From Pirellula sp. (lineage in GTDB: Bacteria; Planctomycetota; Planctomycetia; Pirellulales; Pirellulaceae): 49,472 nt of DNA. Location of the stretch: NCBI GenBank assembly GCA_021300155.1, contig JAJTID010000154.1:1-49472 (forward strand), given 5' to 3'. Shown one piece after another: positions 16,322 to 18,021 of the stretch (positions within the stretch are counted from its first letter, which is position 1; each line of letters begins with the position of its first letter). Under the pieces are notes generated by a model, which was not told where the DNA came from, searched no databases, and was given only the letters and a program-made list of their open reading frames with translations. A program made the position numbers and the translations under genes.

Positions 16322-16483
16322 TGCAGAAGCCAATCCAAACGCACGTGGATCAGCCTTAGCTAGCATTCGCAAAATGGTTTTTTTGCGTTGTTCCGATGAG
16401 ACACAATTTGATGCGAATGTGATATATTGCGAACATCAGTGAATCAATAAAACACACAACTATCTCATTCAAGGGTACACGCT

Positions 16484-17272
16484 ATGTTGATCTTGGGTCG
16501 TCGCGCAGAACAGTCGATTGTTTTTCCATCGTGCGGAATCGTCGTGCGGATGCTCAGCATCAATGGTCGCGTAGCCAAGGTAGGTATTGAGGCACCAGAG
16601 AATATTGAAATCTTGCGAGGTGAAGTAACACCGCAAAGTTATACAAGTAACGACTCCTCAAACATGGATATCGCGTACTCCCATTGCGCTAATCGCAACG
16701 CTGCAAAACTGGAGAAGCTTCGACTAGACCTGTCAAAAGTTCAGTTGCTCCGTAATAACGATCAGACCGAAGAAGCTGATCGGATTTTTGAATCGGTACT
16801 ACTACAACTGAATGCCATCGATCGGCCTTGCTCCTTGGAATCTGGGGTTGCGGAAGCGGCATACTATTACCGCAATGAAGCGATGCCGCATGACGTACAA
16901 ATCTTGTTTGTTGGACATGCCCAAGCCGCGATTGAGGACGATCTGAAGATTGTTGAGAATCGTCTCGGGCACCTGCAATGCATCGATAGTGCTGAACTGG
17001 CGTTTCGTACGATTGACTTTTCCGAAATCGATTGTGTGATACTCGATGCTGATCAGTGCACGAACATTGGAGTGGTTCTTCGATCTTTGCGCGCGATGGA
17101 TTCCACTAGATCTCTCTTTGTGATTTGCGTTTCCAAGTTTACTCCTTCACTTTTTGGACTATCGTTCGAGGGTAGTTTGTTCGACGGATGGATCCTGCAG
17201 CCTTGGGATTTTTCAGCAATTCTGAGTCATGTTCAATTCGCATTAGGTCCGAGTGGCGTCGAAAGCCGTTGA
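16484..17272 (+). CDS. CsrA domain fused to a degenerate response-regulator receiver domain
   Basis: This 262-residue protein begins with a full CsrA/RsmA RNA-binding unit (MLILGRRAEQSIVF, VRMLSINGRVAKVGIEAPEN), keeping L4 and an Arg45 at the place of the RNA-binding R44. A helical linker (about 65-130) follows. Residues 137-255 have receiver-domain layout: beta-1 VQILFVGHA, Asp188 in CVILDAD at the phospho-acceptor position, beta-4 LFVICVS and beta-5 GWILQPWD. The acidic pair after beta-1 and the conserved Lys before Pro are both missing, so phosphorylation is doubtful; it looks like a pseudo-receiver. An AAGGG ribosome binding site precedes the ATG by 8-9 nt. CsrA is normally a 60-75-residue protein, so this is an unusual architecture. 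Confidence 0.75.
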   Translation: MLILGRRAEQSIVFPSCGIVVRMLSINGRVAKVGIEAPENIEILRGEVTPQSYTSNDSSNMDIAYSHCANRNAAKLEKLRLDLSKVQLLRNNDQTEEADRIFESVLLQLNAIDRPCSLESGVAEAAYYYRNEAMPHDVQILFVGHAQAAIEDDLKIVENRLGHLQCIDSAELAFRTIDFSEIDCVILDADQCTNIGVVLRSLRAMDSTRSLFVICVSKFTPSLFGLSFEGSLFDGWILQPWDFSAILSHVQFALGPSGVESR

Positions 17273-17303: not shown

Positions 17304-18021
17304 TTGAATACCTCGTTCTGGGATAGTTATCTTGCAATTCGAATTCGCTACTGGGTGCTTCGAGGTGTTCTGTTAAACTGGATCAAGCGTGCATTGTTTA
17401 CAATCCGCGCCGTATGGTCTTATGTTTGTTTGGTTGTCTTATTGAGTTTGATTGCGACGATACCGGTTTTGCAGCTTGCAACTCTTGGATACATGATCGA
17501 GTGTTCATCGCGCATCTCGCGTTATTTGCCGTGGCGCGAGTGCATGCCAGAAACATTGGTAGCCCGACGAATCGTCATCGCGCTTGGGTGTATCGCCATG
17601 TCATGGCTCCCTGTGTGGTACAGTGCGGACGTCGCTTACACAACGGAACTCATCGAGTCAGGTGGAGATCGGGCGAGGCAGCTTCGGTTGCCAATGACTT
17701 TGGTTGGGATTCTTTGCGGCGCTAGGTGCGATCGTAAGGCGGTTGGTCCCGGGTACGATGGTGACCATCGCCGTGAGTGGGCAACCTAGCCCAGGAAAGC
17801 GAATTCCAGAGGAACTCGAGTGGACGCTGACCTTGTTCTTCTTTTTCTTTCTGTTTCCTGCGAAGCTGGTGGTTGGTTGGGTCTGGAGGCGAGGCCAAAG
17901 TTTTTCAAATAGGGCGTTTTGGTTCTGGTGGTATATTGCGTGGATGCCTCAGATCGCGGTGATTCTGACCTATATTAGGGTTTTGTATCTCGAAAATTCA
18001 CCTCGTGGGAAGGCGCCGTGA
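17304..18021 (+). pseudogene. Membrane protein gene, frame-shifted and probably internally deleted
   Basis: Two frames join into one membrane protein if one base near 17703 is skipped. The first (17304-17789) gives a helical N-terminus with LLSLIATIPVLQLATLGYMI. The second (from 17704) gives LGFFAALGAIVRR and then LTLFFFFFLFPAKLVVGWV, ending near 18021. I recall longer planctomycete membrane proteins in which the matching first and last parts are separated by about 200 residues, so the middle seems lost here as well. The first frame opens at a TTG directly after a TGA, without a clear start signal. It could instead be a sequencing error combined with a short orthologue, or a +1 frameshift. 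Confidence 0.55.

Follow-up and report, generated by a model that had tools for sequence, protein, structure and literature searches.

The window, by which we mean the whole 49,472-nucleotide stretch of Pirellula sp. contig JAJTID010000154.1 analyzed here, encodes a protein in which a CsrA RNA-binding domain, a helical hairpin, and a receiver-like domain are joined in one chain. Judging from its sequence and from the analogy with AmiR, we consider it fairly probable that this protein descends from a CsrA-headed, kinase-driven response regulator and works independently of phosphorylation. This reading is based on the position of its nearest intact relative (L017) beside a hybrid kinase, together with the loss of the corresponding chemistry in the window protein.

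The open reading frame at positions 16484-17272 is real and unbroken and yields a single 262-residue protein, with CsrA at residues 1-49, the hairpin at about residues 70-113, and the receiver-like domain at about residues 137-255. Its features are the following:

16484..17272, + strand: csrA-DHp-receiver fusion gene of 262 codons plus stop; frame shared by ortholog L008/L022
16484..16630, + strand: CsrA RNA-binding domain (PF02599, E 1.2e-11), residues 1-49, with R6 and R45 retained
16616..16618, + strand: Arg45 codon (alignment to 1t3o chain)
16691..16822, + strand: DHp-like hairpin of two helices, residues 70-113, in which the phospho-acceptor His and the next Asn are lost (family profile versus own-genome HisKA)
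16892..17248, + strand: degenerate receiver, residues 137-255 (profile scores and predicted model)
16913..16918, + strand: Gly144-His145 at the acidic-pair place (profile alignments)
17045..17047, + strand: Asp188 at the phospho-acceptor place (alignments)
17132..17134, + strand: Ser217 at the conserved Ser/Thr place (alignments)
17198..17200, + strand: Gln239 at the conserved Lys place (alignments)

The first-pass annotation had described a full CsrA unit with its RNA-binding Arg that continues into one fused chain, and both points hold. The protein passes the curated cut-off of PF02599 (44.8 bits versus 27), and the RNA-binding Arg of the last CsrA strand is present as R45, which we take to be the Arg44 position in E. 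coli CsrA numbering. Besides CsrA, Pfam reports nothing in this protein; its score against TIGR00202 (38.1) falls short of the equivalog cut-off (70.1), and all matches to NCBIfam csrA models lie below cut-off. A sequence search of the PDB returned CsrA chains (E 0.007 and worse) as well as PmrA receivers that weakly match residues 164-261 (E 0.1 and worse). The RNA-binding domain and its Arg are shared with the short CsrA/RsmA proteins, which comprise 60-75 residues, carry no receiver, and are controlled by sRNA or FliW. The fused frame is retained in an ortholog (L008 = L022) from a separate Pirellula metagenome assembly. This ortholog is 85% identical to the window gene and lies in the same gene order of sulfatase, beta-helix protein, csrA-receiver gene, membrane protein, and lipoyl synthase, the first two window neighbors being identified by Pfam and the last two named by eye. 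The membrane-protein gene appears in the window (17304-18021) as two overlapping shorter frames and at L022 as one 385-aa frame, reflecting an assembly error or a real break. Upstream of the window gene, and at L022 too, lies a perfect 8-base inverted repeat, CATTCGCA...TGCGAATG (16364-16371 / 16412-16419), which could be an operator or a chance occurrence.

The receiver-like nature of residues 135-255, likewise proposed at first pass, is borne out by profile scores and by a predicted structure. Residues 52-262 match a family profile without CsrA columns at E 3.9e-7, compared with 0.098 for the best of 1000 shuffles, and after removal of all same-genus sequences from the profile, the receiver part scores 6.4e-4 versus 0.052 for the best shuffle. 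The Pfam receiver model PF00072 finds no match in the window protein. A model of residues 134-262, predicted from only two input sequences and with moderate confidence (pLDDT 66), shows the order of strands and helices typical of a receiver, its third strand ending at D188. In the comparison of this model with known folds that the annotation had suggested, receivers make up 32 of the 50 PDB matches listed, the first listed being a lysine decarboxylase; the full-length predicted model was too poor for use. Sequence profiles and a model of moderate confidence together point to both receiver fold and receiver homology.

The chemistry of this receiver is incomplete. An Asp at the phospho-acceptor place had been annotated, and D188 indeed stands there in the alignments, accompanied by the conserved Ser. 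The acidic pair and the Lys, reported as lost, are gone, with G144-H145 and Q239 in their places. The residue pair E151-D152, aligned as the acidic pair in one alignment (A3), was rejected for this role, as profile alignments put G144-H145 there. With D188 present, the window protein falls outside the aspartate-less receivers; in seven sister members, the phospho-Asp is replaced by Asn or Gln.

The layout had been presented as undescribed, a claim contradicted by both the literature and the genomes. CsrA and ANTAR are already named as RNA-binding response-regulator outputs in the available part of PMC2222644 (citing Galperin 2006). To the extent covered there, CsrA-output response regulators share with the window protein the combination of CsrA and receiver in one chain, and the window protein differs from them by its degenerate receiver. 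E. coli CsrA has been called an orphan response regulator (PMC12471899), a label that does not refer to a fusion. In the open-licence literature, we found no account of the DHp-like linker, of the pairing with CheB-CheR kinases, of the degenerate clade, or of a linker His going with a receiver-bearing kinase.

A search with a profile built from six intact CsrA-linker-receiver proteins finds the layout in at least 71 of 297 Pirellulales genomes, the order sampled (E 1e-45), and in at least 23 of 391 genomes of a phylum sample (E 1e-40), all of the latter within the same class. These counts are lower bounds, with at most eight (order) or six (phylum sample) candidates scored per genome, and the window's own genome falls below both cut-offs. 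The CsrA-receiver layout is thus common in Pirellulales and not unique to the window gene. A mixed profile matches 14 of the 27 genomes of the genus, and once in the window genome. In another search of 60 genomes, the window's own counted among them, 14 match at E 1e-8. Textbook receivers follow CsrA in several relatives, among them L017 of the same genus as well as L016, L019, and L020. In an alignment of 77 different proteins, CsrA is found in all 77 and Response_reg in 71 (E 1 or better), and the key residues are largely conserved (R6 in 77, R45 in 76, the phospho-Asp in 69, and the Lys in 64). From these, a non-degenerate set of 63 was made by hand, which includes some members without the linker His and sets aside L001, L008-L015, L076, L077, and L094-L096. 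A tblastn search of a plasmid collection with the ortholog gave no match.

Kinase-like genes lie near many members of this family. Within 1.5-kb flanks, kinase or CheB/CheR similarity is found near 43 of the 63 non-degenerate members versus 2 of the 14 others (L095 and L096), and in 171 of 1065 random 3.8-kb background stretches, drawn from the same regions at least 6 kb from any family gene. Within 2.5 kb, such similarity accompanies 42 of 64 family genes in wider regions, which are not random (four hold two family genes each, and the rest cover the family with near-copies omitted); in 23 of these 42, it is a CheB-CheR-kinase ORF with a receiver. More specifically, the end of the L017 gene overlaps the start of a CheB-CheR-PAS-PAS-HisKA-HATPase-receiver kinase ORF, which the 1.5-kb count missed because the flank held only the kinase end beyond the query piece. 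L021, also of the same genus, lies about 0.3 kb after an ORF of the same composition. None of the nine loci of the degenerate clade, the window included, has a kinase within 2.5 kb (for L125, only 0.4 kb is available on one side), and the window gene accordingly lacks within this distance the cognate kinase that is usual, if not obligatory. Closer CheB-CheR relatives, at least 45% identical along most of the piece, were found in G026, G021, G025, and G006. In eight genomes whose only family gene belongs to the degenerate clade, full-length CheB-CheR relatives reach 36-42% (G000 also holds a 44% fragment), and two of the eight (G017 and G022) show no CheB-CheR relative at E 1e-50.

In a maximum-likelihood tree rooted by midpoint only, a branch (100/95) sets nine genes apart, namely the window gene with its ortholog and seven sisters from the genus; the intact L017 is the next to join this clade (100/98). 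The nine, all of one genus, lack the linker His, the receiver chemistry, and a kinase nearby, and the branch of the window pair is long, at 2.0 changes per column. The simplest reading of these sequences is that the chemistry was lost from an intact ancestor. On the same evidence, the basic type of the family is not represented by the window protein, which is a derived and degenerate member.

Such losses would also be expected if the C-terminal part were a decaying remnant, leaving an ordinary, unregulated CsrA with hairpin and receiver as passengers. The missing linker His, acidic pair, and Lys, the long branch of the window pair, and a receiver dN/dS above that of non-degenerate pairs all speak for this explanation, which we nevertheless regard as unlikely. 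Between window gene and ortholog, dN/dS (NG86) amounts to 0.045 for CsrA, 0.18 for the linker, and 0.21 for the receiver, the receiver value resting on this one pair; two sister pairs give receiver values of 0.10 and 0.20. Four non-degenerate pairs range from 0.008 to 0.09, some of them with high dS, and the higher value of the window receiver indicates that constraint is relaxed. The codon changes show that the window receiver is under purifying selection, relaxed but present. Furthermore, all nine clade members retain full length, and receiver residues are 88% identical between the window orthologs, and both findings speak against a domain in decay.

A receiver that is retained could still be phosphorylated. 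The presence of D188 and S217 leaves room for weak or unusual phosphorylation, and with 20 HisKA matches in the window genome, D188 might receive phosphate from an unlinked kinase or a small phosphodonor, other residues forming the metal site; E151-D152 lies nearby, in the acidic-pair columns of one alignment. We consider this improbable. The loss of the acidic pair and the Lys makes ordinary phosphorylation unlikely, the places of the metal-binding pair and the Lys are taken by G144-H145 and Q239 in the profile alignments, and the seven sisters have lost the Asp too. A phosphate-free descendant thus remains our preferred reading.

The stretch between CsrA and receiver had been annotated as a plain helical linker. 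Its helical character stands, with helices predicted at residues 70-91 and 95-112, but its DHp-like character across the family had been missed. The motif H-x-x-[RK]-N-x-L follows CsrA in many family members, and the linker columns of the 77-member alignment contain the His in 56 and the Asn in 57 proteins. A linker profile of all 63 non-degenerate members aligns, His on His, with a HisKA profile made from 18 of the 20 matches in the window genome (probability 94, E 1.5e-7, score 33.8); the highest score among 200 column shuffles is 15.1. By this match to HisKA of the window's own genome, far above shuffles, the family linker is DHp-like. An earlier version of the test was biased because its linkers had been picked by the His motif, which 47 of 77 satisfied (33 of these entered the alignment), and it was hence repeated on all 63. 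Pfam HisKA matches 13 of the 77 family members at E 1 or better, weakly (best E 0.002), and is absent from the window protein; the matches listed in a PDB profile search with the linker include helical-repeat, coiled-coil, and designed proteins, and no kinases. As far as profiles can tell, DHp homology holds for the linker of the family, and not for the window linker taken alone. In the window protein, the His and Asn places are occupied by N70 and A74 (alignment A3) or by gaps (other alignment), so that the His is lost under either alignment. Outside the window clade, L018/L131, L048, L049, L094, and L095 also have a linker without His; the receiver is intact in L018, L048, and L049 and partly changed in L094 and L095. 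L096 has the linker His and changed receiver residues. It is very unlikely that the window protein acts in mixed dimers that modulate the short CsrA proteins of its genome: CsrA is a dimer, and the genome holds six further, weaker CsrA matches (E 4e-4 to 0.05), four of them seen as short sequences, but a DHp-like hairpin would favor self-pairing.

Among family genes with a kinase nearby, 33 of the 34 with a linker His adjoin an ORF with a receiver, versus none of the eight without it (Fisher 7.6e-8, treating genes as independent). The receiver is confirmed by Pfam in 11 of the 33 and recognized by the family's own receiver profile in the other 22, and its absence is Pfam-confirmed for all eight His-less genes and for L180, the sole exception, whose kinase runs off the contig end before the ATPase domain. 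On the tree without L180, each trait changes three times, giving only three independent pairs, of which one lies on supported branches and is concordant; with only about three independent changes, significance is out of reach. Four of the eight His-less genes (L053, L054, L055, and L178) belong to pair clusters, in which the copy with the His neighbors a hybrid CheB-CheR kinase, and the copy without it a CheB-CheR kinase that has no receiver. The "no receiver" label of L131 is doubtful because its CheB-CheR ORF is split from a HisKA-HATPase-receiver ORF, and the HAMP-type kinases of L138 and L163 may serve other partners. In the clusters of L053, L054, L055, L056, and L178, two CsrA-receiver genes that lie about 10-12 kb from each other, one with and one without the linker His, flank CheB-CheR genes.

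Such a pattern would be expected of a four-step phosphorelay that runs through the linker. Phosphate would pass from the His of a hybrid kinase to the Asp of the kinase receiver, on to the linker His, and finally to the receiver Asp of the same CsrA protein, whose phosphorylation would then switch RNA binding; the linker His would disappear from proteins whose kinase lacks a receiver. A DHp-type hairpin with a His also serves as relay step in Spo0B and other DHp-like phosphotransferases, there in a separate protein. The linker of the intact relatives may be likened to the Spo0B hairpin, the window copy being without the His. We tentatively propose that planctomycete phosphorelays may end on CsrA with the linker as built-in phosphotransfer domain, and that the window clade could be an uncoupled, phosphate-free RNA regulator.

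For the window protein, the phosphate-free reading would imply that CsrA, dimerized with help from the hairpin, binds GGA-type mRNA sites, and that the pseudo-receiver tunes this binding through contact with a partner molecule or by fixing the dimer, not through aspartyl phosphate. AmiR offers a precedent, combining a pseudo-receiver with an ANTAR RNA-binding domain and being held by AmiC (PMC3369931, PMC4395418). From the available parts of these articles, AmiR resembles the window protein in its RNA-binding output, phosphate-free receiver, and helical link in a dimer. It differs in having ANTAR in place of CsrA, in being listed among aspartate-less receivers where the window protein retains D188, and in having a known partner, AmiC. 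The intact relatives would instead place RNA binding under two-component control, possibly by phosphorelay through the linker His. Phosphorylated ANTAR regulators of the EutV type may serve as a model for these relatives, with kinase-driven RNA binding by dimerization, although their RNA-binding fold is another and a coiled coil takes the place of the DHp-like linker.

CsrA is usually tuned indirectly, by small RNAs made by a two-component system such as BarA-UvrY or by FliW. In Pirellulales, a signal domain is wired straight into the CsrA chain, and 43 of 63 non-degenerate members have kinase-like genes in their vicinity, so that direct phosphate control becomes testable with one purified protein pair. 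The window clade would represent the opposite move, in which a receiver no longer depends on phosphate yet is retained.

Upstream regions of the family were also scanned for sigma-54 promoters, csrA being enriched among sigma-54 targets in Planctomycetia according to the available part of PMC12316311. A score of 9 or more was reached in 13 of 77 (16.9%) versus 10.6% of shuffles, which is no clear excess, and this candidate was dropped. Neither a HAD-type ORF nor an MMPL-like ORF lies beside the window gene. In all seven loci of the sister clade (L119-L125), a downstream ORF with a HAD-type motif overlaps the csrA-receiver end as called and is followed by a long ORF resembling an MMPL exporter, for which Pfam was run on L119 only.
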